From contig NZ_JAQIIO010000001.1 of the NCBI RefSeq assembly GCF_027891095.1, positions 598,501-662,500 on the forward strand: 64,000 nucleotides of DNA, read 5' to 3'. Of this stretch, positions 10,718 through 32,887 are shown one piece after another; position 1 is the first letter of the stretch; every line of letters starts with the position of its first letter. The translations under genes and the position numbers were made by a program. Source of the DNA: Aliiroseovarius salicola. Its GTDB lineage: Bacteria > Pseudomonadota > Alphaproteobacteria > Rhodobacterales > Rhodobacteraceae. Under the pieces are notes generated by a model. That model was not told where the DNA came from, ran no database searches, and saw only the letters and a list, made by a program, of their open reading frames with translations.

Positions 10718-10738
10718 TCCCACGATAAAAGGAAAATC

Positions 10739-12139
10739 ATGACTGAAACGGTGTTGACCGAGCTGACCTGCTTCAAGGCTTATGACATACGGGGGCGTAT
10801 GGGGGATGAGTTGAACGAAGAAGTGGTCGAGCGAATTGCGCGTGCTTTCGCTCAGGTCCTGCAAGCTCAAACAGTCGTGCTGGGGCGTGACCCACGCGCG
10901 TCCTCTCAGGCGTTGTCCAATGCCGTAGCCAAAGGATTGATGTGTTCCGGAGTCACTGTGATCGATCTGGGGCTATGCGGCACGGAAGAGGTCTATTTCG
11001 CAACAGATCATTTGGGAGCTGACGGCGGGATCTGCGTGACGGCCTCGCACAATCCTATGGACTACAATGGATTGAAGCTGGTCAAAGCGGGGGCAGCGCC
11101 GCTTGACACGGAAACCGAGTTTGCGGCGATCAAGAGACTGGCGGAAAGCGGGACATTTGGCTCTGACGCGCCAAAAGGATCCTACGACACCAGCCCAGTG
11201 GATCGTTGCCGCGCGGCCTATGTGGACCGTGTATTATCCTTCATCGACATCACATCTCTTTCCCCAATGAAAATTGTCGTCAATGCGGGGAACGGTGCGG
11301 CGGGCCCCAGCTTTGACAGGATTGCAGCGGCATTGGAACAGGCGGGCGCTCCGATCAGTTTTTGCCGGATGCACCATGTGCCGGATGAACGATTTCCAAA
11401 TGGCATCCCCAATCCTCTTCTTCCGGAAAACCAGCCTGCAACATCAAATGAGGTGCTTGCACAAGGTGCGGAGCTGGGCGTTGCATGGGATGGGGATTTT
11501 GATCGCTGCTTTCTGTTTGACAATGAGGGCGCGTTTGTCCCCGGTGAATATTTGGTGGGTTTGCTGGCCGAAGCCTTTCTTGCCAAAGATCCCGACGAAA
11601 CGATTGTGCATGACCCTCGTGTGATCTGGAACACGCAAGACCTGATTGCTCGCGCGGGTGGTCGTGCAGTTTTTGCCCGCACCGGACACGCCTATATGAA
11701 ACAGGTTATGCGTGACAGCGGAGCGGTTTATGGTGGCGAAATGTCGGCCCATCACTATTTTCGCGACTTTATGGCCTGTGACAGCGGCATGATCCCCTGG
11801 CTATTGGTGCTTGAGCTTTTGTCGCGCAAAAGCGCCACGTTGGCCGATCTGATCCGCGCTCGCCGTACCGCCTTTCCGTCTTCGGGTGAGATCAATTTCC
11901 GGGTCGAAGATGTCAACCATACTGTTGCGAATGTTGAAGCCAAATACGCGCCACTTGCTCTTGCACGTGATGATACGGATGGGATGAGCCTTGATTTTGG
12001 CGACTGGCGACTGAACCTGCGCCGATCAAATACCGAGCCTTTATTGCGGCTGAACATCGAAGCACGTGGAGACGAAGTGCTCCTGCGTGCGCGGGTCGCA
12101 GAACTAAGCGCACTATTGGCCGGACACGCATCAGACTGA
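10739..12139 (+). CDS. manB: Phosphomannomutase
   Basis: 466 aa alpha-D-phosphohexomutase converting mannose-6-phosphate to mannose-1-phosphate for ManC. Seen: substrate-binding AYDIRG, phosphoserine loop TASHNPMDYNG, metal loop DGDFDRC, sugar loop GGEMSAHHYF, and phosphate-binding RRSNTEPLLRLN near the C-terminus. Same operon as manC. The 3' end overlaps the convergent yjbF-like gene by 9 bases. Confidence 0.95.
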   Translation: MTETVLTELTCFKAYDIRGRMGDELNEEVVERIARAFAQVLQAQTVVLGRDPRASSQALSNAVAKGLMCSGVTVIDLGLCGTEEVYFATDHLGADGGICVTASHNPMDYNGLKLVKAGAAPLDTETEFAAIKRLAESGTFGSDAPKGSYDTSPVDRCRAAYVDRVLSFIDITSLSPMKIVVNAGNGAAGPSFDRIAAALEQAGAPISFCRMHHVPDERFPNGIPNPLLPENQPATSNEVLAQGAELGVAWDGDFDRCFLFDNEGAFVPGEYLVGLLAEAFLAKDPDETIVHDPRVIWNTQDLIARAGGRAVFARTGHAYMKQVMRDSGAVYGGEMSAHHYFRDFMACDSGMIPWLLVLELLSRKSATLADLIRARRTAFPSSGEINFRVEDVNHTVANVEAKYAPLALARDDTDGMSLDFGDWRLNLRRSNTEPLLRLNIEARGDEVLLRARVAELSALLAGHASD

Positions 12140-12796
12140 GCTGGGGATTTTCCTGAGAGCAAGCGTGCCAACATAGTGGCTGATCCATTGGCGTGACTGC
12201 ACGATTTCAAGACTTCCGTGCTCAATCCAATAGAGGTTCTGGAAGGTCGTGTGACCATTCAGGCAGTCGGACTGCATTAAGTTGGTTCTCGCCACATATG
12301 GACCAAGGTCAACGCGCCGCTCTCCGCGCGGACTGGCCTGACAGCGATAGCTGCTGATCTTGGTTTCATCATTGGCGGTCAGGTGGGTGATAAAGATCTC
12401 AACCGTCCCGTTTTTACCGGACTTCAGCAGGGGCCATAGACCGGACATATCTGCGGCCATCATGTCGCCGCCCAATCCACGGGTTGAGATCACCATGCCC
12501 TCTATTGTCGCAAGCCCGACCATGTCGGCTGAGATCCAGCTTACTTGCCCTTTGGCATTTTCAGTCTGTTTCACAAATGGTGCCAGCGCGTTCTCACGAT
12601 TTTCGACGGACACAAGAAAAGAGGGGGCACCGCTTTCGGCCAATGCAACAAAAGTCGGATCAGGGTTGTGGAGCGGAGCTGGGTTGAGCACATCTCGCAG
12701 GGTTTGGTTTCGGCGTTCATCCGATGAGCAACCGACAAGCGTTAAGGCAACCACAAGCCCGGAAATCCATGTCGCGCCGCGTCCGGTTATCCTCAT
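12131..12796 (-). CDS. yjbF: YjbF-like outer-membrane lipoprotein
   Basis: 221 aa. An N-terminal signal ends in the lipobox LVGCSS, and the rest matches the YjbF family (DUF2886-like lipoprotein) of the yjbEFGH exopolysaccharide system. The function is unknown beyond a role in polysaccharide export. Start at 12796: ATGA overlap with the stop of the upstream yjbH-like gene, so the two are translationally coupled. YjbE and YjbG partners are not seen here. Confidence 0.75.
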   Translation of the reverse strand: MRITGRGATWISGLVVALTLVGCSSDERRNQTLRDVLNPAPLHNPDPTFVALAESGAPSFLVSVENRENALAPFVKQTENAKGQVSWISADMVGLATIEGMVISTRGLGGDMMAADMSGLWPLLKSGKNGTVEIFITHLTANDETKISSYRCQASPRGERRVDLGPYVARTNLMQSDCLNGHTTFQNLYWIEHGSLEIVQSRQWISHYVGTLALRKIPSSV

Positions 12797-14904
12797 CTCC
12801 AGAACCTTCCCCACCGATCTTCCAGTTCATTTCCATGGGCGCCCCGGATCAGGTCATTCAGCCGGTTGCGCATCTCCAACCGTGCGCCACCATCCCGTAG
12901 GACCGGGCGGATTGTTGTGGCAAACGCTTCTTTTGAGGGGCTGCCGACCAACCAGTCGATAGGAATGGAAAACCGGATACCTTTGTCGAACGACCCTTCG
13001 CCAAATTGGGAAAACGGAGTGTCGGTGAGGGTGAAAAAGGCTCCAACTCGAAATCCGTTGTTGAACTCCCGATCAAGCGACACTGTCGCGCCCCAATCGC
13101 CAGCCAGATAGCGGCCGATGTCAAGCTGGCCCAGATACCCCCCGCCAAAATCGTAATAAGCTGAGGCGTGGCCGGTCATGATGTCATAGTCGCGAAACCC
13201 GAAAAGCTGATCATAGGCACGTTGGCGTGCGTAGTTCACCTCAGCCCCAAGTGCGAGAGAGGAGTGCACGGGCTTCCAGAGTAATTCACCAGAAACGCCA
13301 CCATACATGGTTTCAAAATACCCGGTTGTGAGACGCGCATAGAGGTTGCGACCGGGCCGAAAGAAATACTCCGCAGTCAGGTGCTTGATCTGCACATCAG
13401 ATTGCTTCGAGTATTCGGTCACATCGGTACGCACATGGGGTAGGACCGAATTTGAGGGGCGGGTGCTTGTGTGGAGATTGCCCAGCAGGGACTGGCGAAG
13501 GCTTCCGGATAGCACCAGACCCGGCGCAGGTTCGTAGGAGGCCAAGAACTGCAGGCCCAGATCCGCGCGAATAGGGGCGTCTGGGTCAAAAAGTTCGGGC
13601 TCCAGATAGGGAGTAAGTGACCAGGACAGCTGTGGATAACGGTCGGGGGATGTGGCGCCTGACATATCCGTTGCATTCACGATTCTGGCGAGGGCAAAGC
13701 TTTTCCATGCGCCATCCAGATCGTATTCCAGTTCTTCCAGATCTTGCCTGCGTAAAATCACGCGCGAAACGGGCATGCCGTGGATGGCAAGGTCGATGTG
13801 AAACTCTTCAATGGATTTAGGCAGGCTATTGGCGAGGATGCGAGCAGCCCGCCCGATTGCTTGTGCCTCGGCGGCATAGCGTGAATTGGAGATACGCAAA
13901 ATGGCAGTGTTACTCTCCAGCGTGAGCGCATCCAGCCTCAGACCTTGGTCCTCTAACAATAATGCAAGTTTGGAACGGCTTGCGGCTATGTCTTGCGGTC
14001 CCCATCCAAGTTCTTCCGCAGTTTTTCCGGGCAACAAGGCTGGAGGAGCGGCTTCGATCCCAGAGGGAATCCGATCCCGTTTCGGATCGGTTGCGAAATT
14101 AGCTGCTATCCCAACTTCTGTTCCGTGCAGAAGAAATGCAGTCAGATTGGTGCCGCTTCCAGCTTGGTAGGTCAGCCCGAAGTTGAATGGGGTATTTCGC
14201 TCAAATCCGGTATGGCTTCCTTCTTGGACGTAAGCGTCCGAAGAGTATTCTGCATTGAAATGCAAATTCGGTGTGACTTGGTAAGATAGCCCTCCAAAGA
14301 GAGCGGCATCACCCCGAAACCACTGATCCACCTCTAATCGGCCGACCTCTGAGATCGATCCCGGTCCCTCGCCACGCGTATCAAAACCGCTGGATAAAAT
14401 TGAAAGCGGGTTTTTGAACCCACCATGGCTGGCCAACCGACCCCAGCCAAGCCCGGCGGTCAGGGTAAGTCGACCGGATAGGAAATGCTTGCTGGCGGCG
14501 ACATATTCCGACCCATAAACCCCGGTGCCACCAAAATCTCTAAGGCCAATCTGTACCGCTGGGCGGGTGCGGGTTTCCTTGAACAGAAGATAGCCCAGAT
14601 CAAAACTGCGATCATACCGGGTGCTGTTCGGACCATCGAGGCGATCAATGATCGAGTATCGGAAACTGCCAAACAAACGGGGTGTGATCTGAAAAGTAAG
14701 CGTGTGACGGAAGGTGCCATCGTGCAGGGCGGTCGTATTGTGAATGGCGCCATCCGGCAGGACAAACCCAGAGGGCATATCGATTAGACCTGGGGTGCCA
14801 AATGTCGAGACATGCGTTCCACCAAGAGTATCACTGGCTGCGATGTGGGCGGGCAGCATCAGCAAGCACAGTGCAACAATTTTGGATGCGGATCTAATAT
14901 GCAC
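12793..14904 (-). CDS. yjbH: YjbH-like outer-membrane beta-barrel protein
   Basis: 703 aa with a signal peptide (cleavage after residue 23 or so, HIAAS). The sequence opens with GTPGLIDMPSG, typical of YjbH, and alternates short amphipathic strands ending in aromatic residues throughout, consistent with a predicted outer-membrane barrel. YjbH-family proteins accompany exopolysaccharide loci. Start is GTG at 14904 with GAGGG 9 bases upstream; the next ATG (residue 16) would cut the signal peptide. The yjbF-like gene follows with an ATGA overlap. Confidence 0.82.
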   Translation of the reverse strand: MHIRSASKIVALCLLMLPAHIAASDTLGGTHVSTFGTPGLIDMPSGFVLPDGAIHNTTALHDGTFRHTLTFQITPRLFGSFRYSIIDRLDGPNSTRYDRSFDLGYLLFKETRTRPAVQIGLRDFGGTGVYGSEYVAASKHFLSGRLTLTAGLGWGRLASHGGFKNPLSILSSGFDTRGEGPGSISEVGRLEVDQWFRGDAALFGGLSYQVTPNLHFNAEYSSDAYVQEGSHTGFERNTPFNFGLTYQAGSGTNLTAFLLHGTEVGIAANFATDPKRDRIPSGIEAAPPALLPGKTAEELGWGPQDIAASRSKLALLLEDQGLRLDALTLESNTAILRISNSRYAAEAQAIGRAARILANSLPKSIEEFHIDLAIHGMPVSRVILRRQDLEELEYDLDGAWKSFALARIVNATDMSGATSPDRYPQLSWSLTPYLEPELFDPDAPIRADLGLQFLASYEPAPGLVLSGSLRQSLLGNLHTSTRPSNSVLPHVRTDVTEYSKQSDVQIKHLTAEYFFRPGRNLYARLTTGYFETMYGGVSGELLWKPVHSSLALGAEVNYARQRAYDQLFGFRDYDIMTGHASAYYDFGGGYLGQLDIGRYLAGDWGATVSLDREFNNGFRVGAFFTLTDTPFSQFGEGSFDKGIRFSIPIDWLVGSPSKEAFATTIRPVLRDGGARLEMRNRLNDLIRGAHGNELEDRWGRFWR

Positions 14905-16031: not shown

Positions 16032-17366
16032 ATGGTTATGAAAAATGTGCACCTTAGGGCAGCCCTTGGTGTTGGTGGATTGAAAGCCATCACACTGCCG
16101 CTGACCATTCTTCTGTCGGTTGTTCTCGCCCGTGTTTTGGGACCGGAAAGCTTCGGCCGATATGCTTTTGTCATGTCTATAGCCATTTTTTTGGCACTGC
16201 CCGCAGGGGTGGGCGTAAACGGATTGCTTGTGCGCGAGGTGGCGCGTGCAAAGGCGGACAATGATCATGCGCTTATGTCGGGATTGATCCGCCGTACATT
16301 GCTATGGGTGGGCACCTATTCTGTGTTGCTTTGGGCTGCCGTGGCCGTTTTCTGGATTGCGGGGGGTGAACTCATCACAGGCAGCGCGGACATGTCAGTG
16401 CTATTTGCCTTGGGTGTGTTTCCGCTTTTATCCCTGATCGCTGTTCAGTCGGGTATTCTGCAGGGATTGCAGCGCCCGGTGATCTCGCAATCCACTCAAT
16501 TGTTGTTTCAGCCCACATTCTCAATTTTGCTGGTTGGTCTGTTGGTTACGTTCCAAGGGGCGCTCAGTCTGAACGCGACCTATTTGCTGCGTATAATTGC
16601 AGTGGCCTTTGCGTTGCTGGCTGGGATCGGTCTGGCGTATCGCCGAATTCCTGCAGAGGTTTGGACCGCCTTGCCAAAGTATGAGGACAAGGCGTGGCGG
16701 CAGGCCCTTTTGCCGTTCATCCTGATCGCAGCGACAAACACGCTAAATGTCGAGATTGGAATCTTGGTGCTTGGCGGCCTCGGAGCCGAGATTGAAGTAG
16801 GTGCACTGCGAGTGGCGCAGAGCGGAGCGCAGCTTTTGATGTTTCCGCTATTTATCAGCAACATGATCATGGCGCCGTTCGCGGCTGGTCTGGTCAAGAC
16901 GGGGGATCTTGCAGGTTTGCAGAGCAAAGTCAGGCGCGCTTCATTTCTGACGTTCTTTGTCTCAGCCTGTGCCGCCTTGCCCCTGATCTTATTTGCGGCT
17001 CCGATCTTGGGACTGATCTTTGGGGAAGCCTACGCCGGCATCGCAGAACTCCCCCTTCAGGTGCTGGCACTGGGCTTTCTCTTCCGGGTGGCCTGTGGTC
17101 CAAACGCAATGATCCTGTCCATGGCCGGTCATGAACAGCGTGCCTTGCGGGGGCAGATCGTGACACTGGTGGTCTCGGTGACTGCCGTTCTCTTCCTCTC
17201 GCCGATGTTCGGATCGACCGGCGCAGCCGCTGGCATTTCCCTGGGCTTGGCGGTTGGTCAGATCTATCTGCTGATGCTGTGCCATGAATATCTGCATTTT
17301 CTGCCAATAGGATTTTGGAAGAGTGGTTTGATTGCGAACATTCAGAAAAGGCCCGCGCGGGAATGA
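16032..17366 (+). CDS. Polysaccharide flippase, Wzx/MATE-like (PST family)
   Basis: 444 aa, hydrophobic throughout with about 12 membrane segments. The N-terminus (GLKAITLPLTILLSVVLARVLGPESFGRYAFV) is the classic Polysacc_synt start of oligosaccharide flippases, which move undecaprenyl-linked repeat units across the inner membrane. Starts at ATG 16032, with another ATG two codons on and GTG just before. The next gene starts within its stop codon (ATGA), so it heads the wzx-wzy-sulfotransferase operon. Confidence 0.9.
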   Translation: MVMKNVHLRAALGVGGLKAITLPLTILLSVVLARVLGPESFGRYAFVMSIAIFLALPAGVGVNGLLVREVARAKADNDHALMSGLIRRTLLWVGTYSVLLWAAVAVFWIAGGELITGSADMSVLFALGVFPLLSLIAVQSGILQGLQRPVISQSTQLLFQPTFSILLVGLLVTFQGALSLNATYLLRIIAVAFALLAGIGLAYRRIPAEVWTALPKYEDKAWRQALLPFILIAATNTLNVEIGILVLGGLGAEIEVGALRVAQSGAQLLMFPLFISNMIMAPFAAGLVKTGDLAGLQSKVRRASFLTFFVSACAALPLILFAAPILGLIFGEAYAGIAELPLQVLALGFLFRVACGPNAMILSMAGHEQRALRGQIVTLVVSVTAVLFLSPMFGSTGAAAGISLGLAVGQIYLLMLCHEYLHFLPIGFWKSGLIANIQKRPARE

Positions 17367-18619
17367 ACGACGGAATGGCAACAGACAGGCTGGTCGGCCT
17401 CGAATTGCGAACTGGCAGGGTTCATAGGGAAACAGTACTGTTTCTATTGTTGATCCTCTTCATTCTAGCGCCCAAGGTAAATGTTATTTCCTTTGGCCAC
17501 GCTGGTTTGAGGGTCGAGGATTTTGTCCTTCTATTTGCTCTGCCTTTGCTAGTTTGGAACTATCGGTTGAGTGCAATTCCGGTGCCCTCATTCGTTTGGG
17601 CTTTTGCGGCCTATCTGGCCGCATCGCTCTTTTCGGCTCTTGTGAACCACGCAACTTTGGGGCCAACGGGTTTGGTCTACGTGGCACGTCAGGCGCAGTA
17701 TTTTGTCTGGTTTCTTATTGCCGCCCAGTTTGCACCATCCATTTCCGAGCGCACATTCAAGCGTGGGTTTGGTGTAATTGCCGGGATCTTGCTGATCTGG
17801 TGGATCGGTGAGCTGCTGCAACTTGTTCCGAAGATTGGCAGGTTCTCTACAGTCGGGGATCGTCTGACTCTGAATACCTCCGGCCCATATGAAACCGCAA
17901 TTCTGGCCGTGATCATCTTTTTTGTTGCCCCCGCCCGGTGGCAGAAAATTGTGATGTTCGCGGTGCTTCTGGCGACGCAGTCGCGGATAACGATTGCGGC
18001 TTTCCTTGTTGTCTGGGCGGTCGCAAGGCCAGGTCGAAATGCATTGCTGATCACGCTAATCGTGCCAATTGCCCTCGTGTTTGCTGCGGCCAGTCCAGAT
18101 CTGTTTCAGGCTGGGCGACTGACCCAGACCCAGTCGCCTGCGGCGATGCTGCAAGACCTACGCGACAGGTTTGATACTGTCATGCACATTACATCGATCG
18201 CAGATTATCGCGCGCTGGTCAGCCAAGGCTTGCATGACAATGTGGATTATCAAACCGGAGACGCCAGTTTTCAGGTCAGGGCGTTCAAATGGGCGCTTAT
18301 CATCAAGTCCTTGGGTGCCAGCACGACCCAGTTTCTGTTCGGGTGGGGGCCGGGGGCCTGGGGGCTCGCTGTGGATGGTCACTATGTGCGCTTTCTTGGG
18401 GAGGGCGGGATCGTCGGGTTCATAGCTGCGATGTATTTCTTTGCCCTGAGCCTCACTGGCCGGGACGCACCTCGAATCTACCGCCTTGGTTTCTTCTGCA
18501 TGGCTCTCAGCTGCATTTTCATAGATGCCGCGACTTCATCCAAAGTCATGTCCACGCTCTGGATGTTGGCTGGATATTTCCATTCCCGGCGTTATCGAAG
18601 AAGCGAGAATGCACCATGA
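17363..18619 (+). CDS. O-antigen polymerase/ligase-like membrane protein (Wzy/WaaL type)
   Basis: 418 aa with about ten membrane segments and a larger periplasmic loop in the second half (about residues 245-310). The motif GWGPGAWGLAVDGHYVRFLGEGG after that loop matches the Wzy_C region of O-antigen polymerases and ligases. It probably polymerises repeat units flipped by the preceding protein. Start at 17363 because it overlaps the flippase stop as ATGA. Polymerase and ligase cannot be told apart from sequence alone. Confidence 0.85.
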   Translation: MNDGMATDRLVGLELRTGRVHRETVLFLLLILFILAPKVNVISFGHAGLRVEDFVLLFALPLLVWNYRLSAIPVPSFVWAFAAYLAASLFSALVNHATLGPTGLVYVARQAQYFVWFLIAAQFAPSISERTFKRGFGVIAGILLIWWIGELLQLVPKIGRFSTVGDRLTLNTSGPYETAILAVIIFFVAPARWQKIVMFAVLLATQSRITIAAFLVVWAVARPGRNALLITLIVPIALVFAAASPDLFQAGRLTQTQSPAAMLQDLRDRFDTVMHITSIADYRALVSQGLHDNVDYQTGDASFQVRAFKWALIIKSLGASTTQFLFGWGPGAWGLAVDGHYVRFLGEGGIVGFIAAMYFFALSLTGRDAPRIYRLGFFCMALSCIFIDAATSSKVMSTLWMLAGYFHSRRYRRSENAP

Positions 18620-19539
18620 GATGTGTCCTTCATATCGGCACGGAAAAAACCGGTACAACCTCACTTCAAACATTCTTGGTTGAAAACAAAGCCGCGCTTT
18701 CCAATCAGGGCATTGCCATCAGTTTGGCCCTCGGCGAAGGGAATAACAGGATATTGGCCCTTGCGTTTCAATCTTGTCTGGATGACCTCGCGCGGCGCTT
18801 GCGCCTGTCCGACCTGAACGAGAAATCAGCCCTTTGTGCACCTATTCTTGATGCCTTTTCCGAGGAAGTTGAGCAGGCCAAGGCGCATCACGATGTCTTT
18901 GTCATCAGCTCAGAGCATTTGCATTCGCGCCTGCGCAACGAAACCGAAATTGATGCACTGCATCGCTACCTGTCACCACTGTTCAGTTCCATTGATGTAC
19001 ACGCCTATCTTCGACAACAGGCCAGATTGGCCCAAAGTAACTATTCCACCTGGATTGAAGGGGGGGGAGGGGCGGATGACCTTGCAACATTTACAAAAGA
19101 TGCCCAGCCGGGAAATCCCTATTACGACTACTCGCTTCTGGCAAAGCTATGGACTGGCGTGTTTGGTGAAAACGCATTTCATCCACGTCTTTATCAGCGT
19201 CAAAACCTTTTGGGTGGAGATGTGAGACAGGATTTTTTAACGCACGCTCTGAATTTGGATCACCATCAGGGGTTTGGTTTTAGGACGGTCGAAAGTAATC
19301 CGTCACTTGGGGCTTTGGGGATTACTTTTGGGCGCGGAGTTAACTTGGTCCTGCCGCAATTTCTGTTTGGTCGCCGCAATCGGGCAAGAGACGCGATCAT
19401 GCGCTCTTTTGTGCTTTCTGGCCTTGGTAAGCTCGGGCCGCAGAACCCGAGCAAACTCGACGACATTCAGGTGCGATTTCAGCGGGTAAACGGAGAGCTG
19501 ACACGACGTTACCCTTGGCTTTCTGAAGGGTTTAACTGA
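18616..19539 (+). CDS. Sulfotransferase-like P-loop protein
   Basis: 307 aa. The N-terminus is LHIGTEKTGTTSLQTFL (residues 5-21), the 5'-phosphosulfate-binding loop of bacterial sulfotransferase-like proteins, followed by VFVISSEHLHSRL (about residues 95-107). Such enzymes move sulfate from PAPS to a sugar hydroxyl. The gene overlaps the polymerase gene as ATGA, so it is coupled to the polymer operon and likely modifies that polymer. The real start is the ATG at 18616; longer frames run back over the polymerase gene. Enzyme activity is inferred. Confidence 0.78.
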   Translation: MRCVLHIGTEKTGTTSLQTFLVENKAALSNQGIAISLALGEGNNRILALAFQSCLDDLARRLRLSDLNEKSALCAPILDAFSEEVEQAKAHHDVFVISSEHLHSRLRNETEIDALHRYLSPLFSSIDVHAYLRQQARLAQSNYSTWIEGGGGADDLATFTKDAQPGNPYYDYSLLAKLWTGVFGENAFHPRLYQRQNLLGGDVRQDFLTHALNLDHHQGFGFRTVESNPSLGALGITFGRGVNLVLPQFLFGRRNRARDAIMRSFVLSGLGKLGPQNPSKLDDIQVRFQRVNGELTRRYPWLSEGFN

Positions 19540-19625: not shown

Positions 19626-20561
19626 TTACAGGATTGTCAGCCGTTTCACATGTGGCCGATCCAGAGTGGCGGGCCACCATCCATTGCCCAGCACCTGCTC
19701 AGTCAGGATCGTTCTTGTACCATCATCATAGGTGATCTGCACATCGTAGACCCCGCTGACACCCTGAATGCCCGCAATATCTGCGGCGCGATTCACGCCT
19801 GTGCTTGTGGTTGGGATGTGTGAACTGGGGGAGCTTCCCGCTTCGATCTGAGCACCCCAAAGCACCAGCTGTTCTCCACCAACAAAAGATTTGCTACCGT
19901 TGATGCCTGATGCCGGGCCAACGGCAAACAAGCCGTTTGCAGCAGGCGACAGTGTGCCGTAGAGCCGAGCCACTTCGCTACTAATAAGTTCAATTCCGAC
20001 GTCGCTCCAGCTTGTGTTGATCTGGGACGCTCCAGTCTGAAGATCAAAGGCCACACCGGCAGGTCCGTTGCCGAAACCGTAGAACATGACATAGCGATGC
20101 AAATCGCGACGGCAGAATACGCTGATCGTGTGGGCCTGGCCCAATGACAGGGATGCGCTTCGTGACAGAAAACAGTCATTTACGCCTGAATTAACGGTGA
20201 TCAGCCGCGCGCCTAAACCATCCGGTGTGAGAGGGGCGCTGGTGTTGGTGGCGCCACTAATGGTCCAAATGGCCCCAAGATCTGATGGGGCAATCAGGTT
20301 GGTCGAGCTGTGCTCAATCAGCAAACCGCGCGGTTGGCCATCTGCCCCATGGTCGAACCGTGGCGTATCAATTGCTGCGGTTTGGGCTTGCCCTGATGCG
20401 TCGTGAAACCCTGCTGTTGAAGCGCGGGAAAATGTCAGCACTGAAGACAGCGCAACAGATGAACCATTCTGACGATAGGTTTGGGCCGCGAAATTGAGAT
20501 CGAGCAGCGCCGAAGGTTTGACCCTCGGCGCACAGATGGAAGTAAGAAGTCCGATTTCCAT
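19626..20561 (-). CDS. ghsB: GTA head-spike fibre protein, GhsB-like
   Basis: 311 aa. The N-terminal part after residue 20 has the phage spike/tail-fibre type stretch LDLNF..LTFSRASTAGFHDASG..PRFDHG..RGLLIEHSSTNLI, followed by a beta-sandwich-like region of carbohydrate-binding character, and a C-terminal YDVQITYDDGT module. The gene directly follows a spike base gene of the rcc01079 family with a TGATG overlap, matching the ghsA-ghsB pair (rcc01079-rcc01080) of Rhodobacter capsulatus, whose products form spikes on the gene transfer agent head that bind capsule. ATG at 20561 chosen; the TTG one codon earlier is ignored. The symbol is assigned by family and arrangement. Confidence 0.75.
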   Translation of the reverse strand: MEIGLLTSICAPRVKPSALLDLNFAAQTYRQNGSSVALSSVLTFSRASTAGFHDASGQAQTAAIDTPRFDHGADGQPRGLLIEHSSTNLIAPSDLGAIWTISGATNTSAPLTPDGLGARLITVNSGVNDCFLSRSASLSLGQAHTISVFCRRDLHRYVMFYGFGNGPAGVAFDLQTGASQINTSWSDVGIELISSEVARLYGTLSPAANGLFAVGPASGINGSKSFVGGEQLVLWGAQIEAGSSPSSHIPTTSTGVNRAADIAGIQGVSGVYDVQITYDDGTRTILTEQVLGNGWWPATLDRPHVKRLTIL

Positions 20562-20830
20562 CAATAGATACCCACGATATCTGTTGCGGTGGATCCGGTG
20601 GCATAGACGCGCTTGACGCGCAGCGGGTGAACCACGCCACCAATCAGATTGGTGAATGTTACAGGCGTGTCGTCCCCCTGAAGGACAATCTGAACCGTGC
20701 TGGTTTCACCAAGATATAGTCCACGGGTCACGACCGGGAGGTCATTCGCGTCGTCGGGAGTAACGGAAAAGGCGTTGCTGGCGGGTGAAGTGATCCCTGC
20801 GGAACGGCGCTTGAAAGTGTCGAGTGTCAT
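20561..20830 (-). CDS. ghsA: GTA head-spike base protein, GhsA-like (rcc01079 family)
   Basis: 89 aa, no signal or membrane segment. The pattern TPDDANDLPVVTRGLYLGETSTVQIVLQGDDTPVTFTNLIGG..PLRVKRVYATGSTATDIVGIY is that of the spike base family named after R. capsulatus Rcc01079; these small beta proteins attach the fibre to the GTA capsid. The fibre gene follows with overlapping stop and start. No other capsid or tail gene is present in this window, so the main GTA cluster must lie elsewhere, as in R. capsulatus. Confidence 0.8.
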   Translation of the reverse strand: MTLDTFKRRSAGITSPASNAFSVTPDDANDLPVVTRGLYLGETSTVQIVLQGDDTPVTFTNLIGGVVHPLRVKRVYATGSTATDIVGIY

Positions 20831-20966: not shown

Positions 20967-22094
20967 TTAGGCAAGTTTTTCGTAGATGGCCGACGTGGCC
21001 ATAGCAACCTCATCCCAGCTTTGTGACGCTACCCGGTTCGCGCCACTCTTCCGTGCGTGTTCAACCCAATCCGCGCCATCCGCAATTGCCCGCAAACCCT
21101 CTGCGAGGGCATCTGGTGAGAATGTTGGGAATAACTGCTGAGGGGTGACAGCCAGTTCGGTCATTGAGCTATTGTTGGCAATCATCACTGGGGTGTCCAC
21201 AGCGTAACCCTCATAGATCGGAATGCCGAAGCCTTCATATTCTGATGCCATCACAACCGCTTGTGCATGGGCCAGCACCTGCCATTTTCGGGCCTCATCC
21301 ACTGGACCGAGATAAGTAAATCGATCCCCGAGGATTGAGGTGATCTCTGTCAAAATACGGTCTGCGTCGAAGTTCATCCGCCCGGCAATCACCATTTGCC
21401 ATCCGCTGCCTTTGGGAAAGGCCTGGTCAAATCCCCGCGCCATTGTCACGAGGTTTTTGCGAGGCTCCACATTGCCAACAAAGCCCACAAACGGGCGCTG
21501 GGCGAGAGTATCATCCGGCTTCAAGCGCTGCGCAACAGGTCGGTTGAGGATTGAAGCGTCAACACCATTTCCTATGACGCTGATGCGATTTTCCGCTTCC
21601 GGATAGAAATCAAGAATGCGCTGTCGGGTAAACTCTGACACGGCAATTATGTGATCTGCCTCACGAGCTTGCCGGTGAAAATTGCGCTTGGAATATATAA
21701 CATTGCGGCGCGAGAAAAATTCGGGGCGATCCAAGGGAATGATATCATGGATTGTGGCAAGCTTGGGTTTGCCGTGGCGGGTTCCAAGATTTGCAAAATA
21801 GGTTTCGTGAAGGATGTCGTGCTGACCTGGGATCAAGAGGCTTTGCAAGCGCGGCAGATATTCGAGTAGCGCGTTTTGAATGCGGCGGTCCCCGGCAAAA
21901 ATGCGTGAAGAGATCTGTGTGTCAGATGTTGGCAGAAGAGAGACAAAGCTGTTCTTCCCCCTTTGTGTCTGGACGAAGTGGTCGAATTCTTGTCGTGCAA
22001 GCCGCGTCAGCGCTTCAGACAGACCAAGGCAATAACGTGCAACACCGCTGATCGGGTCTCGAACCGGGCGGCAGTCGAGCAGCACCCGGGTCAT
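20967..22094 (-). CDS. Glycosyltransferase family 4
   Basis: 375 aa, GT-B fold. The N-terminal domain has DPISGVARYCLGLSEAL and a HEL-like DILHETYF region with IHDIIPLDRPEFF; the C-terminal GT1/GT4 domain has GFVGNVEPRKNL, YLGPV, and the donor-binding SEYEGFGIPIYEGYA motif with the paired glutamates of retaining GT4 enzymes. Cytoplasmic; adds a sugar to the growing lipid-linked unit. It overlaps the upstream acyltransferase gene as ATGA. Donor and linkage not predictable. Confidence 0.9.
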   Translation of the reverse strand: MTRVLLDCRPVRDPISGVARYCLGLSEALTRLARQEFDHFVQTQRGKNSFVSLLPTSDTQISSRIFAGDRRIQNALLEYLPRLQSLLIPGQHDILHETYFANLGTRHGKPKLATIHDIIPLDRPEFFSRRNVIYSKRNFHRQAREADHIIAVSEFTRQRILDFYPEAENRISVIGNGVDASILNRPVAQRLKPDDTLAQRPFVGFVGNVEPRKNLVTMARGFDQAFPKGSGWQMVIAGRMNFDADRILTEITSILGDRFTYLGPVDEARKWQVLAHAQAVVMASEYEGFGIPIYEGYAVDTPVMIANNSSMTELAVTPQQLFPTFSPDALAEGLRAIADGADWVEHARKSGANRVASQSWDEVAMATSAIYEKLA

Positions 22095-22783
22095 GAAGAA
22101 CCGCCATCTGTTCGGGGAGGTGTGATTGTGCGAGTTTCTCGTGCTGGCACACCTGTCGCCACCATCCCCGCCGCGATGGAGCGTGTTACCACAGCCCCGG
22201 CACCAATGACCGCCTTGTCGCCGATGACCACACCATCAAGAATGGTGACATTATTGCCGATCCATACATTCTCGCCAATCGTGATCCCGACCCGTTCAGT
22301 TGTGCCATCGGTAAAAGACCCATCATTGCCCAAGCTATGCTGCTCAGCCGACAGGCGCAGCCCAGCACCAATTTGCGTGCCCGCCCCGATCCGCACCATC
22401 CCACCCACTCCGATCGACGCATGAGGACCGATATAGGCGCGTTCCCCTATCTCGAGCCCCTCTCCCATCTCACCAAGCCCACTGCGGCATTGCACCCAGC
22501 AAAACTCGCGCAAAGTTGCGCCGTGCGCGATTTTCACGCCGCGATGTGATGAAGCATCCAGATATGAATGGTGGCCGATGGCTGCCCCGGGCGCGAGGTG
22601 GATCTGAGATTTTGCGATCAATACGACCCCGCGTCCCAGAAAAACCAACCGACCGCGCCGGATGCCGTAGAGCAGCAATCCGCGGATCGCGGAACCTCCT
22701 GCTTTGCTGACAAGGTATCGCAGGTCTTTTAGAGACAGCGTATATTCGCGCCCGGTCAGGAATTTGATGATGTTGGAGATCAA
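22091..22783 (-). CDS. Hexapeptide-repeat acyltransferase
   Basis: 230 aa left-handed beta-helix protein with repeated [LIV]-G-x4 hexapeptides from about residue 60 to 215 (IGHHSYLD, IGERAYIGPHASIGVGG, IGENVWIGNNVTILDG, IGDKAVIGAGAVVTRSI), ending GVPAR, the LbetaH signature of WcaF/WbbJ-type O-acetyltransferases. Likely acetylates a sugar of the polymer. The apparent start is TTG at 22783 with no clear ribosome site; the frame stays open further upstream, so the start is uncertain. Its stop overlaps the ATG of the GT4 gene. Confidence 0.85.
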   Translation of the reverse strand: MISNIIKFLTGREYTLSLKDLRYLVSKAGGSAIRGLLLYGIRRGRLVFLGRGVVLIAKSQIHLAPGAAIGHHSYLDASSHRGVKIAHGATLREFCWVQCRSGLGEMGEGLEIGERAYIGPHASIGVGGMVRIGAGTQIGAGLRLSAEQHSLGNDGSFTDGTTERVGITIGENVWIGNNVTILDGVVIGDKAVIGAGAVVTRSIAAGMVATGVPARETRTITPPRTDGGSS

Positions 22784-22987: not shown

Positions 22988-23896
22988 ATGGTTGCTTTGA
23001 TAATTCCTGTTCTGAATGGTGGCGTGGTTTTCGAGGATTGTTTGGCTGCAATTGGCGGCCAGACACTACGCTTTAATACAAAACTTGTGTTGGATAGTGG
23101 GTCGTCGGACGGATCACGCGATCTTGCTTTAAAGCATGGGTTTGAAGTCTGGGATGTGCCGCATGGAACGTTCAATCACGGGGGCACCAGATCACTTGCC
23201 GCCTCTAAGGTCAAAGACGATATTCTGCTGTTCCTCACCCAAGATGCGGTTTTGAATGAACCTGAGGCGGCTGCCAAGCTTGTTGCGGCATTCGAGGCCT
23301 CAAATATCGCCGCAGCATTTGGTCGACAGTTGCCACACCATGATGCAGATGACATTGCAACCCATGCCCGCTTGAGAAGTTATGGGACGGATTCCTATGT
23401 GACGTCGATAACATCCTCATATCCGGCGGGAATTCGTAAATGCTTTCTGTCGAACTCCTTTGCAGCTTATCGAAGGGAGGCGCTGCAAGGTATCGGTGGG
23501 TTTCCCTCGAATGTGATCCTCGCGGAAGACATGTTCGTGGCAGCACGGCTTTTACAGGCTGGCTGGTCGGTTGCATACGTCGCAGAAGCACGCGCGCGCC
23601 ATTCGCACAATTACACGATCCGGGAAGAGTTCCGCCGGTATTTCGATACGGGGGTCTTTCAGAAACAGCAGGCGTGGATCCTTGAAGAATTTGGGCGCCC
23701 AGAAGGTGAAGGTGTGCGTGTCGCCCTTGATCAGGTTCGCTACTTGTGGCGGCAGAACCGATGGGGACAGATACCCAGATCTCTTGCTGTCAGTAGCGTG
23801 AAATACTTCGGGTACAAATTGGGATTGCGACATGATCGGCTGGGTCAGGATGTGTCCCGTCGCTTAGCCATGCACAAGAGGTATTTCGCCGAATAG
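22988..23896 (+). CDS. Glycosyltransferase family 2, rhamnosyltransferase-like
   Basis: 302 aa GT-A enzyme. N-terminal nucleotide-binding IIPVLNGG, DSGSSDGS acid motif, then FNHGGTRSLA and LLFLTQDAVLNEP, the pattern seen in bacterial rhamnosyltransferases (the HG and QDA elements), and later AEDMFVAARLLQAGW as the catalytic ED region. Rhamnose as donor fits the dTDP-rhamnose genes 3 kb away, but is inferred. It is the only plus-strand gene between 20 and 29 kb and has its own promoter region; its stop lies 5 bases from the end of the convergent GT4 gene. Confidence 0.88.
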   Translation: MVALIIPVLNGGVVFEDCLAAIGGQTLRFNTKLVLDSGSSDGSRDLALKHGFEVWDVPHGTFNHGGTRSLAASKVKDDILLFLTQDAVLNEPEAAAKLVAAFEASNIAAAFGRQLPHHDADDIATHARLRSYGTDSYVTSITSSYPAGIRKCFLSNSFAAYRREALQGIGGFPSNVILAEDMFVAARLLQAGWSVAYVAEARARHSHNYTIREEFRRYFDTGVFQKQQAWILEEFGRPEGEGVRVALDQVRYLWRQNRWGQIPRSLAVSSVKYFGYKLGLRHDRLGQDVSRRLAMHKRYFAE

Positions 23897-23901
23897 AGCT
23901 G

Positions 23902-25002
23902 TTAGGAGCGCATATTGCGAAGGATGGCCCGCGCCTCGTCCGCAGTAACATCGAACTCCGAAAGGAATGAGACGGCATCGTCTTCCGCTGCATTTTGTAA
24001 CCTCTGCGCATGGGAGTGCATCTGATCGGGAAGGTGGTTTCTTGCGTTCACCACATCTTTCATACGCTCATGCAGGCTGGGCAGGTCGCTGCTGAGATCC
24101 ATGGTCATCAACCACTGATCTGAAATCAGGCGGGAGCGAATGCAGCCGCGGTCAGGTGCAAACACCGCAGCACCCGCGCTATAGGCTTCCAGCAACACCA
24201 ACGGGTCAGCCTCATCAACCAATTTGGTCGGCAATATCAAAAGATCGATTTCTTCGAAAAAAGACTGCTTTTTCGTTCCTGATATGGGGCCAAGCCAGCG
24301 GATACGTCCGTCGCTCCGGTCCACGGCTACCTCAACCTCATGGCGCAACTCCGCGTCCGGGATAGGGCCTGCAAGGACCAACTTGCCGCGCCCACCTTGT
24401 GCAATGTAATCCTTCCAAAGTTCCAGAAGATATGGTGCGCCCTTATCCGCCGTAATTACGCTCAAATGCCCGGCCACGGGGGCGCCTTCGCGGCGAGGCG
24501 GGACGGCAGCGGTGGGATGTGAGAATAGGGCGGCGTTCGGCAGACACAAAAAACGCTCTCGGGAATTCACACGATAAAGAGCCTGATATTGGTCGCGCAT
24601 TTTTTCACTGAGCAGAATATGGGTGGCATAGCCGTCGGACAGGCTTCCAAGCAGTTTCAATGCGGGCAATGGCCCTAGAGCGATTGCGCGATAACTATGA
24701 TGGTGGGTGTAAAACCGTATACGCCTCAGACGCAGCGCAAGTGCGGTGGGAAGGAAAAACCAAATGCCATTCTGACCGGGCAGAGAGCTGTACACGATAT
24801 CTCCGTTGCGCAGGCCAACCAGCAGGAGAAGTGGATTCAGAATAGCGCGCCAGATCTTACCAAATGTGCTCCCGCCTAAAGGAAGACGGATGAGAGCGCC
24901 GATTTGCGACAGGCCAGAAGCCATGCGTTCATTGTAGATGGATTGACCATGCATGGGTGGAGGGCATTGGCCGATAAACCAAATCCGTTTGCGTCTGCTC
25001 AA
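23902..25002 (-). CDS. Glycosyltransferase family 4 (TTG start)
   Basis: 366 aa, GT-B fold. N-terminus IWFIGQCPPPMHGQSIYN with the GQ loop of GT4 acceptor domains; middle YTHHHSYR and LLSEKM; C-terminal PEP-like GAPYLLELW, WLGPISGTKKQSFFEEIDLLILPTK and the donor site EADPLVLLEAYSAG. The frame is open far upstream, but that stretch lies over the acyltransferase gene and reads as no known protein. The likely start is TTG at 25002, which overlaps the upstream TGA and has GGAGGG 4 bases before it. Last gene of the rfbC-B-D-A operon. Confidence 0.85.
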   Translation of the reverse strand: MSRRKRIWFIGQCPPPMHGQSIYNERMASGLSQIGALIRLPLGGSTFGKIWRAILNPLLLLVGLRNGDIVYSSLPGQNGIWFFLPTALALRLRRIRFYTHHHSYRAIALGPLPALKLLGSLSDGYATHILLSEKMRDQYQALYRVNSRERFLCLPNAALFSHPTAAVPPRREGAPVAGHLSVITADKGAPYLLELWKDYIAQGGRGKLVLAGPIPDAELRHEVEVAVDRSDGRIRWLGPISGTKKQSFFEEIDLLILPTKLVDEADPLVLLEAYSAGAAVFAPDRGCIRSRLISDQWLMTMDLSSDLPSLHERMKDVVNARNHLPDQMHSHAQRLQNAAEDDAVSFLSEFDVTADEARAILRNMRS

Positions 25003-26093
25003 CGTACCCTCCGTTCGACCCCGGTGAAAATCCGTTCGGGAACAGCCGTGAGCGCTTTGCGGGCCGGCCGTTCGATCCACAGATATCCCCAGTAGCTGAG
25101 ACCAAAGATCGTGGCGTAACTGAGCAAACTCATACCTAGGAGCACTGGCAGATTGCCGGGCATCAACTTGTCTGCGATTACATTCATAAACACCAGGATG
25201 ATCACGCGATGCCAGATGTAGATGGCATAGGTCAGCTGTCCAAGTGGCGCGCCTATCGCCACCAAAACGCTCACGTTGCCATGATGGTCTGATGTCACGG
25301 CAACGACAAACAGCACCAGGATCGTCAGCATCGTGACCCAACTCGGAATGGGAAGGCACATTTCAATAAAAACGAGCGCTGACAATCCCAGCATCACGTA
25401 CCCTCTATCCTTCAGATCAGGCAGCCGATCCCGAATGCGATAAAGAAAAACGCCAATCGGAAAACTGACCAATCCTCTTAGCAAATGCGGCAGATGCCCC
25501 CATTCCTTGTATTCCGGCAGCAGAAAAGCGGCGGTCAGTGTGAAGAGAAGGCAAACTGTCCCAATCCAGATGGGCCCGAGCATTGCGAGTGACGCAATGA
25601 GTGGGAACAAGATGTACAGCCCCATTTCAATGCTGATTGACCATGTCACCCCATTGAACATGTATGGGGAGCCGCAGTCGAAATATTCCTGAACCAATAG
25701 TGCTGTCTGGGTGATGCATCCCGGTGCAAATGATGGTGCCGTTGCGCTTTCCCCGCGTGTCAGAAGCACAGCCCAGACCACGATGTTGACGGCAAGTACC
25801 ACCAGGTGAAGCGGATAGATCCGGGCGATCCGTCGCCACATGAAATCTGCAAAGCGACGCAGGTTGCTTATCCGTCCTGCGTAGACATAGGCGAGAACAA
25901 AGCCTGAGATCATGAAAAACAGATCGACATAAAGCCCAAACCCCTGTTGGGCGATGATCAAGGCACGTTGCTCGGGTGGAAAGAAGAACTCATTGGAGTG
26001 ATAGACGACAATTCCGACGCTTGCCACAAAGCGCAGAAAATCGAGATTTCTCAAAGCATCAGTCTCGGTTTGCAATCCGATCAAGCGCGCCAT
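24999..26093 (-). CDS. Acyltransferase 3 family membrane O-acyltransferase
   Basis: 364 aa integral membrane protein with about ten helices. N-terminal NLDFLRFVASVGIVVYHSNEFF carries the conserved R..A...VV..H of the acyltransferase 3 family (OafA, ExoZ, NodX), and FFMISGFVLAYVYAGR follows. These move acyl groups, usually acetyl or succinyl, onto periplasmic or lipid-linked sugars. It lies 16 bases after rfbA and is coupled to the following glycosyltransferase. Acyl group unknown. Confidence 0.88.
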   Translation of the reverse strand: MARLIGLQTETDALRNLDFLRFVASVGIVVYHSNEFFFPPEQRALIIAQQGFGLYVDLFFMISGFVLAYVYAGRISNLRRFADFMWRRIARIYPLHLVVLAVNIVVWAVLLTRGESATAPSFAPGCITQTALLVQEYFDCGSPYMFNGVTWSISIEMGLYILFPLIASLAMLGPIWIGTVCLLFTLTAAFLLPEYKEWGHLPHLLRGLVSFPIGVFLYRIRDRLPDLKDRGYVMLGLSALVFIEMCLPIPSWVTMLTILVLFVVAVTSDHHGNVSVLVAIGAPLGQLTYAIYIWHRVIILVFMNVIADKLMPGNLPVLLGMSLLSYATIFGLSYWGYLWIERPARKALTAVPERIFTGVERRVR

Positions 26094-26109: not shown

Positions 26110-26987
<878 letters not shown>

Positions 26988-26991
<4 letters not shown>

Positions 26992-27842
26992 GTGGCGCTC
27001 CCCTTCAAATCCGCAATCATACCAACCAATGCCTGCTGCCAGTCGGGACGGTTTATCCCAAAAACCTGCTGGGTCCGGGAACAATCCAGGCGGCTGCTCA
27101 GTGGACGTTTGGCTGGAGTTGGAAATTCGCTGCTTGGAATGTCATTTACCGCAACAGTTTTATCTGCACTGGAAAAGATGGCGCGGGCAAAATCTGCCCA
27201 GCTGACATCAGGCGCACCGGTAAAATGGTAGGTACCGGATTTCTCAGGTGCAGTGATCAGTTGATCTGCAATTTTCACACATGCTTCCGCAATTGCGCTT
27301 GCCGGTGTCGGACCTCCGATTTGATCGGCCACGACGTTCAGGTGATCCCGTGTCTTGGAAAGACGCAGCATAGTCTTGGCAAAGTTGTTGCCATGGCAGG
27401 AAAACACCCAGGATGTACGGAGGATCACATGGGTTGCGCCGGTTTCACGTATTCCGACTTCGGCGGCCAGTTTGCTTTGGCCATAGACGCCAAGGGGTTG
27501 GGTCGGGGAGTTTGGTGTGAATGGAGTGTGGCCTCGCCCGTCAAACACATAGTCGGTGGAAATCTGAATAAGCGGGATGCCAAGATCCTTGCAGGCCTCT
27601 GCCATTTCGACAGGAGCCGCACCATTGACCTGATGGGCAAGGTCGTCCTCCTCCTCGGCCCGGTCTACAGCGGTGAAGGCCGCTGCATTGATCACAGCGC
27701 TGGGCTTGGTGGATTGAATCGCGGCGCGACAAGCACCCGGTATTGAAAGATCTGCCTGCTCGCGCTCCAGACAGATTGCGTCAGGCAGGTACGTCGCGAT
27801 CTCACGCGCAACCTGACCGGTTTTGCCAAACACCAGGATCAT
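26988..27842 (-). CDS. rfbD: dTDP-4-dehydrorhamnose reductase
   Basis: 284 aa NADPH-dependent short-chain reductase, last step to dTDP-L-rhamnose. Seen: [15 protein letters not shown] dinucleotide-binding loop, [30 protein letters not shown] (catalytic Tyr and Lys), [18 protein letters not shown]. Start at 27842, ATGA overlap with rfbB. Confidence 0.96.
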
Positions 27843-28888
27843 GAAGATACTCCTAGCCGTTTGCTGACATCGTGGCGAGAGAGCAGTTTTCTCCACCAAT
27901 CCTCATTGGTCAGATACCAGTCCACGGTCTTCTTCAGACCCTCTTCGACTGTTACCGAAGGACGCCAACCCAGTTCATTGCGAATACGCGACGGATCGAT
28001 GGAATAACGGGCATCATGTCCGGGACGATCGGGGACGAATTCGATCTGATCCATGTAGTGACCAGAAACTTTCGGGCGCATTTGATCCAGTATCGCGCAG
28101 AGGGAATGCACCAATTCCAGATTGGTACGCTCATTCTCGCCGCCAATGGCATATGTGCGCCCCAGCGCACCCTTTTCAGCAACCAGCAAAAGCGCTTCGG
28201 CATGATCTTCGACAAAAAGCCAGTCGCGGATATTAGAACCGTCCCCGTAGATCGGCAGTGGCTTGCCTTCAATGGCGTTGATGATGGTCAGCGGTATGAG
28301 TTTTTCCGGGAAATGATAGGGACCGTAATTGTTCGAGCAATTGGTCAGAACCACCGGAAGCCCGTAGGTTTCATGCCACGCACGAACCAAATGATCCGAG
28401 GCCGCTTTTGAGGCGGAATAGGGACTGCGCGGGTCGTAAGACGTGGTTTCTGTAAATCGCTGTTCGGGGTTCTGAGGAAGCGACCCGAACACCTCGTCGG
28501 TGGATATGTGGTGAAACCTGAAAGATGCCGGTCGATCCTTCCCAACCCAATAGGCACGTGCCGCCTCAAGCAGGTTGAAAGTTCCCGTGACATTGGTTTC
28601 GATGAAATCCGATGGCCCGTCGATCGACCGATCCACGTGGCTTTCGGCTGCCAGATGCATGATGATGTCGGGTTGATGTTGTACGAGAATTCTGTCCAGA
28701 GCGGCGCGGTTGCGAATATCGGCATGTTCAAAATGATAAAGCGGATCGTGTTCAACGCTGGCCACGTTTTCCAGACAGGCTGCATAGGTCAACGCATCTA
28801 GGTTGATGACGCCATGCCCTCGCGCCACAGCCTTTCGCATAACCGCAGACCCAATGAATCCTGCGCCCCCTGTGATCAAAACCTTCAT
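27839..28888 (-). CDS. rfbB: dTDP-glucose 4,6-dehydratase
   Basis: 349 aa extended short-chain dehydrogenase with bound NAD. Seen: [42 protein letters not shown] (with the Asp-Glu pair of the dehydratase), catalytic [31 protein letters not shown]. It turns dTDP-glucose into the 4-keto-6-deoxy sugar. Overlaps both rfbC and rfbD by 4 bases. Confidence 0.96.
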
Positions 28889-29448
28889 GTCACATCCTTG
28901 TAGGTGAAAGGGGAGGTGAAATCAGAGAAAGGCGGCGCATCTTGATCCTTCTCTGAAAGGAGGGGGGAGTTCCCAACCAACGGCCAATCAATTCCGCAAC
29001 TGTCCCATCGTACGGCCCCATCGTGTTGCGGAGAGTAGTGGTCAGTACATTTGTAAATTATCTCGCTATCCGGTTCGAGTGTCATGAAACCATGCAGAAA
29101 CCCTGAAGGGATCCAAAGTTGAACCCCATTCTCATAGCTGAGTTCCTCTGCGACCCAACTGCCATAGTTGGGTGACCCGCGACGCACATCTACCGCAACA
29201 TCAAAAATCTTACCACGGCCACAACGCACCAGTTTCCCCTGCGCGTGCGGAGGTGATTGAAAGTGTAGGCCGCGTATCGTTCCGATGTCATGGGACAACG
29301 AGTGGTTGTCCTGAACAAAATCCGGCAAATCCAGCCCCGCCTCGCTGAGTTTTTTTCGATTCCAGCTTTCCGAGAAAAAGCCGCGCTGGTCAATATACCG
29401 GGGCGGCGTGACCTTGTAGACGCCAGAAAGGGTCGTTTCTTCAATCAT
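28885..29448 (-). CDS. rfbC: dTDP-4-dehydrorhamnose 3,5-epimerase
   Basis: 187 aa cupin epimerase. Seen: [51 protein letters not shown] split over the barrel with the catalytic His, and [37 protein letters not shown]. Start at 29448 (MIEETTLSG); the longer frame adds 59 residues unlike the family. First gene of the six-gene rhamnose operon. Confidence 0.95.
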
Positions 29449-29701
29449 TTTTGTGATCTGTTGCCTTGATGCGATTAGAGCTTGGCACAGTATTATCCGA
29501 ACTTCCTCAAAAGTAAAAAACAGTTGTCCAGAAGCGGTGGAATGTTGGTAAATTTTTTGCAAGTATAACCCACAGGACAACCTAGGGGTGTGTTTCTTGT
29601 TGCAGAAGATGTTAGAAAAAAACACGCTTGAATATGCTGAAACACAATTTGATGCTGGTGCTTCTATTCTTGATGCAAATATATTTTGCGCGGAGTGGGA
29701 A

Positions 29702-32531: not shown

Positions 32532-32614
32532 CGGTTTGTCCCCTTTGTCTTTCCGCCGTGGCTTTCTTCAGGAAGCAGCATGCGCCACGTCATTTGCCCT
32601 CAGGCGAGTTGCAT

Positions 32615-32887
32615 CTACTTTTTATTTGTGGATGTGGTTGAGGTTGCTGCTCCGCCGCGTGCAGCCGTTGCAATGGCCAGACCTCCGACTGCCCCCAAAA
32701 CAGGACCAATACCGAATATGAAGTTCTGTGCGTCACCCACGGGAGGCAGGTTTAGATTTTCCACCTGATTGACCTCTGCACAGTCCTGTATTGCCGGATC
32801 GCAGTTTTGAGGTGCCTCTTGTTGTGCGCTGGCTTTGCCTGTTGAGCAGGTCAGCGCAACGATCAGAAATGATGTCGTGTAGCGCAT
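32615..32887 (-). CDS. Small secreted glycine/alanine-rich protein, unknown function
   Basis: 90 aa. Signal peptide (MRYTTSFLIVALTCSTGKASA, cleavage before QQEAP). The mature part has two close cysteines (NCDPAIQDC) and then a hydrophobic glycine-rich segment FGIGPVLGAVGGLAIATAARGG (about 59-80). Not recognised. Lies between the wza-like and wzc-like genes on the same strand, 83 bases before wza, so it is probably cotranscribed with the exporter. Confidence 0.6.
   Translation of the reverse strand: MRYTTSFLIVALTCSTGKASAQQEAPQNCDPAIQDCAEVNQVENLNLPPVGDAQNFIFGIGPVLGAVGGLAIATAARGGAATSTTSTNKK

Follow-up and report, generated by a model that had tools for sequence, protein, structure and literature searches.

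A gene transfer agent head-spike pair within a surface polysaccharide locus of Aliiroseovarius salicola

The analysis of a 64,000-nucleotide stretch of the Aliiroseovarius salicola genome (the window) places two overlapping genes, ghsA and ghsB, in the head-spike base and fibre families of the RcGTA-type gene transfer agent (GTA), and places the pair within a surface polysaccharide cluster of about 26 kb, the limits of which are our own reading. We consider it probable (about 0.8) that the pair is the head-spike recognition module of the organism's own RcGTA-type GTA, kept next to, and replaced together with, the genes for its receptor polysaccharide. A ring of GhsA on the capsid vertices would hold one GhsB fibre, whose carbohydrate-binding-module (CBM)-like domain would bind surface polysaccharide, so that particles would stick to cells with the right sugar coat. 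With the spike module staying beside the polysaccharide genes and being swapped jointly with them, recognition protein and receptor would tend to match. We infer that GhsA and GhsB assemble on the particle and that the linkage is maintained by selection.

An earlier note on this DNA had proposed a GTA head-spike base followed by an overlapping fibre gene of the rcc01080 type, and profile searches with both families bear this out. The 89 aa GhsA matches NF048002 (spike base protein, RCAP_Rcc01079 family) far above its cut-off (E 1.4e-29, 102.2 bits against 28), spanning model positions 1-85 of 85, and it matches the Rcc01079 chain in the cryo-EM structure of RcGTA (PDB 6tb9) with E 1.8e-8. It is the sole match to the spike base family in its own genome, and the base is present in all 21 Aliiroseovarius genomes. 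GhsB has a match to the spike fibre domain model NF048003 (E 2.6e-27; 96.5 bits, cut-off 36) and, over residues 39-287, to the Rcc01080 chain of 6tb9 (E 3.1e-23). The ghsB gene directly follows ghsA, the stop and start overlapping as TGATG, and the most likely start is the ATG at 20561, giving 311 aa, in preference to a TTG-start ORF of 312 aa. In RcGTA the spike base forms a pentameric ring on the capsid vertices and a cation contact of Glu12 has been reported (extracts of PMC7296036); in the alignment the window GhsA has threonine at the position of Glu12.

What might the fibre bind? An AF2 model of GhsB, built on 19 sequences (pLDDT 84, pTM 0.81), has a predicted CBM-like sandwich at about residues 85-245. 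Its best structural matches are two Pseudomonas phage proteins, Pa193 gp46 and E217 gp45 (Z 19.3 and 16.9 over 190 and 208 residues), which belong to the baseplates of tailed phages and not to head spikes, and are 18% identical to GhsB. Many CBMs follow at Z about 10-11 over residues ~85-245, and the matches also include some chains of toxins and enzymes that have a similar sandwich domain. With Foldseek only the two phage proteins have E < 0.001, the CBM matches being at 0.0045 or worse. At the level of the fold, then, the model supports sugar binding, and GhsB would bind the polysaccharide made by the adjoining cluster.

The GTA capsid cluster that a head spike calls for elsewhere in the genome is present, as an RcGTA-type cluster on another contig (G000:C27). 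Ten of its proteins were tested, a set that leaves out the small terminase and an NlpC-type gene, and nine exceed their NCBIfam cut-offs: portal, protease, capsid, connector, major tail, tape measure (NF058675, RcGTA_tape), distal tail, hub and megatron (NF048004). The terminase match falls below its cut-off. The cluster comes after four genes that we take to be fabG, acpP, fabF and mltG. The genome has one GTA capsid match and one PF13547 match, both in this cluster, in a search that is blind to unrelated phage capsids. The absence of any other GTA gene from the window, also claimed earlier, agrees with a tblastn search of the window with the main-cluster proteins, which gave zero matches; tail fibre, lysis, gafA and tspA genes lay outside that search. 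Across the family, the spike base is found in 139 of 394 genomes and the GTA marker PF13547 in 346 of 394; PF13547 occurs in 133/139 genomes with a spike and 213/255 without (Fisher p 3e-4), and may also match phages because there are several copies in some genomes. In one Aliiroseovarius genome (G400, locus L054) the spike pair is present while the capsid match is weak (E 8e-5); this assembly is 87% complete, and its GTA cluster is either missing or not assembled.

The genes around the pair are collected in Table 1. The pair had been placed between a sulfotransferase-like gene and a glycosyltransferase gene, and only the second of these assignments stands on family matches (PF13439 and PF00534). 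For the product of the gene that converges on ghsB, searches of Pfam and NCBIfam up to E 1 and of the PDB gave no match, and the sole hint is its N-terminus, KTGTTSL, which we take to be a sulfotransferase motif. Among the four genes read as sugar-nucleotide synthesis, the first and third have family matches; we presume from position and sequence only that the second is RmlD-like and the fourth RmlC-like.

Table 1. Features of the window in and around the head-spike pair
Feature	Coordinates	Strand	Basis
manC- and manB/PGM-like genes	9374..12139	+	PF01050/PF00483, PF02878-02880
yjbF/gfcB-like gene and yjbH (group 4 capsule / exopolysaccharide type)	12131..14859	-	PF11102, PF06082
Wzx-type flippase	16032..17366	+	PF01943 (1e-12)
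Polytopic membrane protein, Wzy-like by position	17363..18619	+	ORF; no Pfam or NCBIfam match over cut-off
Sulfotransferase-like by N-terminal motif only, convergent with ghsB	18616..19539	+	Presumed motif
ghsB, GTA head-spike fibre, Rcc01080 type, 311 aa	19626..20561	-	NF048003, PDB 6tb9, AF2 model
ghsA, GTA head-spike base (Rcc01079 family), 89 aa	20561..20830	-	NF048002, phrog_12296, PDB 6tb9
Promoter-like element, weak copy of GCGyACG-N16-yTAA	20889..20920	-	PWM 8.7 at -90
GT4 glycosyltransferase, directly upstream of ghsA	20967..22094	-	PF13439 (1e-17), PF00534
Hexapeptide acyltransferase	22091..22783	-	PF00132
GT2 glycosyltransferase	22988..23896	+	PF13641/PF00535
GT4-type glycosyltransferase	23902..24954	-	PF13692, PF00534
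Acyltransferase 3	24999..26093	-	PF01757
Four putative genes of sugar-nucleotide synthesis, rhamnose type	26110..29448	-	First, nucleotidyltransferase (PF00483); third, epimerase/dehydratase (PF16363/PF01370)
Sulfotransferase-family gene, Sulfotransfer_2	29609..30463	+	PF03567 (9e-6), over cut-off
Wza-like export protein and Wzc-like chain-length/tyrosine kinase	31173..35245	-	PF02563, PF02706/PF13807

The setting has a precedent. In R. capsulatus rcc01079-rcc01080 adjoin the capsule genes rcc01081-rcc01086, co-regulation is reported as well, and the fibre binds cells whose capsule is made by those adjacent genes (extracts of PMC10218006). The earlier note had named this adjacency; it is correct and already published, so the adjacency itself is no discovery. 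Our limited literature search found no report of a general linkage of spike and polysaccharide genes or of their joint replacement. The RcGTA pair belongs to the same two families as that of the window, and likewise has polysaccharide genes adjacent and its GTA cluster elsewhere, while being distant in sequence, as the E values against 6tb9 show. The tail-fibre pairs of phages RcapMu and RcWaterboi also have GhsA- and GhsB-type genes side by side, and differ from the window in lying inside a phage genome; their proteins are 37% and 31-32% identical to GhsA and GhsB of the window. GhsA-like genes are seen as well in phages of Flavobacterium and Verrucomicrobia, far from Rhodobacterales. The pair is a typical representative of a known kind, and its setting had already been described for one species. 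What is added is the breadth of the linkage and a difference between sister species, both of them consistent with a recognition module that stays beside its receptor genes.

How general is the linkage? It is wide, yet short of universal. By six-frame scan, at least two polysaccharide markers lie within ~9.5 kb at 57 of the 79 family loci and at 13 of 20 further Aliiroseovarius loci, against 3 of 40 control regions. Counting by called genes gives 50/79, 13/20 and 2/40, and a narrower core marker set gives 47/79, 12/20 and 1/40. The 79 loci are from 79 other genera and form a non-random sample, hand-picked from the better-scoring matches with contig room; the sample excludes second copies, lower-ranked matches and several loci with partial room (e.g. 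G196, G061, G348 and G139), and five of its members fall short of 19 kb. The control regions lie on the same contigs, 100-200 kb off, in 34 of the family-locus genomes and six of the genus genomes. The gene calls are our own, with some genes missed or inverted in GC-rich loci. The marker profiles, for 18 polysaccharide gene types, were derived from the loci themselves, which favours spike loci, and the count was therefore repeated on 35 named loci unseen when the profiles were built. At least two markers are present in 24 of these 35 (against 3/40 controls, Fisher p 3e-8). They come from 80 named loci, of which 26 were places already in the set and 19 others were shorter than 15 kb. The 80 were found with a narrower GhsA alignment and so lean to one GhsA type, an earlier alignment of 18 diverse rows having given no stretch usable for search; the R. 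capsulatus locus is absent from all the loci fetched, including these 80. From the Pfam family tallies, polysaccharide-type families are found among 60 of 220 marker positives.

Loci with zero polysaccharide markers make up 21 of the 79 by called genes and 14 of the 79 by six-frame scan. From 22 loci lacking the markers of a 13-type list we took 145 neighbouring proteins and scanned 103 of them. Their matches are mostly host-type among the families listed (25 of 77; 25 of 71), and, again among the families listed, the PHROG families for endolysin, tape measure and baseplate have one or two matches each in the 103 proteins.

Fibres vary widely between loci. An ORF of at least 150 aa directly follows ghsA in 46 of the 79 family loci, with lengths of 151-1385 aa and offsets of -7 to +11 (33 of the 46 at -1 or -4); one or two of the 46 may be spurious. 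The other 33 loci have no fibre ORF of this length right after ghsA, perhaps in part from gene breaks. Different loci often have unrelated fibres after the base. BLAST comparison of the next same-strand genes, taken from 67 of 100 loci with some miscalled, gives groups of 27, 11 (including the window) and 2, and many singletons. Ten fibre-position proteins were compared with Pfam: two have matches over cut-off, three below it (that of locus L090 and two of Laminin_G_3), and five have no match. The two over cut-off are a GDSL match at L133:9697-11247 and a sialate-acetylesterase family match at L137:9696-11156, and the one at L090:7531-9477 is again GDSL; head spikes of these types may modify O-acetylated sugars. 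A model of a WFDPS/LamG-like fibre, for which the Laminin_G_3 match is below cut-off, reached pLDDT 42 on 7 sequences. A strictly alternating hydrophobic N-terminus is found in 20 of these 46 fibres of the family, compared with 46 of 1534 other proteins. Many family fibres are in this respect like the "star" anchor of RcGTA; the window fibre, beginning MEIGLLTSI, does not follow the strict 4-step hydrophobic alternation and in part follows a looser one. Such zigzag anchors would let different fibres use one base.

Within Aliiroseovarius the comparison can be made between close relatives. The closest by GTA capsid (97%) is A. crassostreae (G394, whose loci L274 and L057 are the same). Going toward the centre of the corresponding site, its flanking genes show 92, 79, 74, 51, 65 and 49% identity to those of the window, and DNA similarity stops in yjbH. 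The GhsA proteins are 37% identical, the fibres are unrelated, and for the central glycosyltransferases, flippase and others there is no clear counterpart in the ~20 kb compared save one glycosyltransferase match of 23%. In a GhsA tree a branch with 100/99 support separates the window from 18 of the 21 genus sequences, and at least two changes are needed in the genus, on well supported branches; the tree has few columns and an unsettled bootstrap, and its root is for drawing only. As for the fibres, 18 of the 21 genomes have another family, the Rcc01080 type occurs in the window only, and two genomes (L071:9941-10207 and L072:9938-10204, both on the minus strand) have GhsA without an adjacent fibre gene. 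Most species of the genus thus differ from RcGTA in putting another fibre type on the same base. In L071 and L072 the next gene, on the opposite strand, is presumably an LpsL-like epimerase.

Fibre identity follows shared neighbours when capsid identity is allowed for (partial rank r 0.80, permutation p 1e-4), in 17 of the 21 genomes; G400 and G409, with no good GTA capsid match, and G401 and G410, with no adjacent fibre, were dropped. In this correlation synteny and polysaccharide content are confounded, and much of it probably stems from two large clades. There is also a counter-case, L054 and L073, where the fibres are 96% identical and the upstream genes are different. DNA similarity between these two stops inside ghsA, which means recombination or an assembly break within the gene, and in L073 a Wzy-like membrane ORF runs in frame into the 5′ side of ghsA (L073:9952-10827, minus strand, 291 aa). 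The earlier suggestion that the fibre type changes with the polysaccharide genes accordingly holds for the sister species and for the genus-wide correlation, confounded as that is by synteny, and fails for L054 and L073. We infer that particle and receptor change together through selection, not by hitchhiking.

That last step is what a passive explanation would dispute. Spike and polysaccharide genes might simply share hypervariable sites and be swapped by recombination in the flanks, with no match of fibre to sugar; this is compatible with the identity of the spike and concerns only the cause of the linkage. Synteny alone would give the correlation found within the genus, L054 and L073 retain one fibre beside different upstream genes, and some family loci have no polysaccharide gene at all. 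Against this, the linkage recurs in loci of 79 genera and in the second set of 35, and in R. capsulatus the fibre binds cells with the capsule specified next door (PMC10218006). On balance we regard mere co-residence as rather unlikely, while taking it as a serious contender.

The other alternatives concern the identity of the pair. Homologues are carried by phages, in 33 records for GhsA (RcapMu and RcapNL included) and 57 for GhsB (RcapMu and RcWaterboi included), and with a few phage-type neighbours at marker-less loci some loci elsewhere may be phage-linked; the pair might be the remnant of a Mu-like or other phage and not serve the GTA. Yet none of 18 scanned neighbouring proteins in the window is phage-like by Pfam, the sole GTA capsid and PF13547 matches of the genome fall in its GTA cluster, and the base is found throughout the genus; we hold a phage remnant to be improbable. 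We give still less credence to recruitment of the pair by the polysaccharide cluster as a cell-surface adhesin or exopolysaccharide-binding protein. The pair lies within the cluster and shares its strand with the GT4 gene upstream, which would suit such a role, as would the predicted CBM-like fold of the fibre, while neither protein has an obvious export signal on inspection, GhsA is retained as a separate 89 aa base, and in many other genera ghsA has its own promoter-like element. The preferred reading remains a head-spike module of the resident GTA, linked to the genes of its receptor.

GTA production kills the producer, so the persistence of the trait is a question. One proposal is that the polysaccharide receptors restrict the benefit to close relatives (Kogay and Zhaxybayeva 2024, extracts of PMC10883770), and a recognition protein linked to, and exchanged with, its receptor genes is the arrangement which that answer needs. 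We suggest tentatively, at somewhat short of even odds, that the Rhodobacterales GTA spike is an exchangeable head on a conserved base, linked to the matching sugar genes, such that tag and reader would form a kin-recognition ('greenbeard') unit passed on as a single block. If so, the spike of such a unit could be any receptor-binding or sugar-modifying protein grafted onto a short zigzag anchor, and tag and reader would steer a suicidal gene-transfer trait to cells with the same cassette. A linked module predicts that fibre specificity follows the polysaccharide cluster, not the species tree, and the varied fibres may offer a natural repertoire of binding proteins, and perhaps of esterases, for the surface polysaccharides of bacteria.

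Late GTA promoters have been reported to carry putative GafA and CtrA sites (extracts of PMC9638019). Upstream of ghsA we find a recurrent promoter-like element, GCGyACG-N16-yTAA, which is a possible GTA regulator site. A position weight matrix (PWM) was trained on 40 ghsA upstream regions, with a threshold at the 98th percentile of 755 control upstream regions, and the element exceeds it in 29/40 training, 20/39 held-out and 33/54 new named loci. These figures flatter the element: the seed was picked by eye in family and named loci together, making the held-out halves partly dependent, the control regions were drawn from these same 100 loci, and some of the named loci share a genus with training loci. 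The element is seen ~45-150 nt before the called ghsA start in L145, L255, L133, L129, L125, L099, L095, L140 and others, and at some ghsA loci its first half is CCG. The window copy is below the threshold, 2.3% of the controls scoring as high, and that of the GTA cluster on C27 is weaker still (top 8.5% despite a longer scanned stretch) with a spacing of 15. The CtrA consensus is TTAA-N7-TTAA, and its best match upstream of the window ghsA is 7/8 at 20921-20935. Scores that high are found for 15 of 79 family ghsA genes and 60 of 755 other genes, a modest enrichment (one-sided Fisher p 0.003) that may be due in part to the TTAA of the promoter-like element. A further motif, TGTTGCG (GGTGTTGCG or its complement), has zero copies within 250 nt upstream of the window ghsA; it occurs upstream of ghsA in L087, L088, L125, L130, L149, L151 and others, and in 7-mer counts CGCAACA is found in 19 of 79 ghsA upstream regions against 31 of 755 controls.
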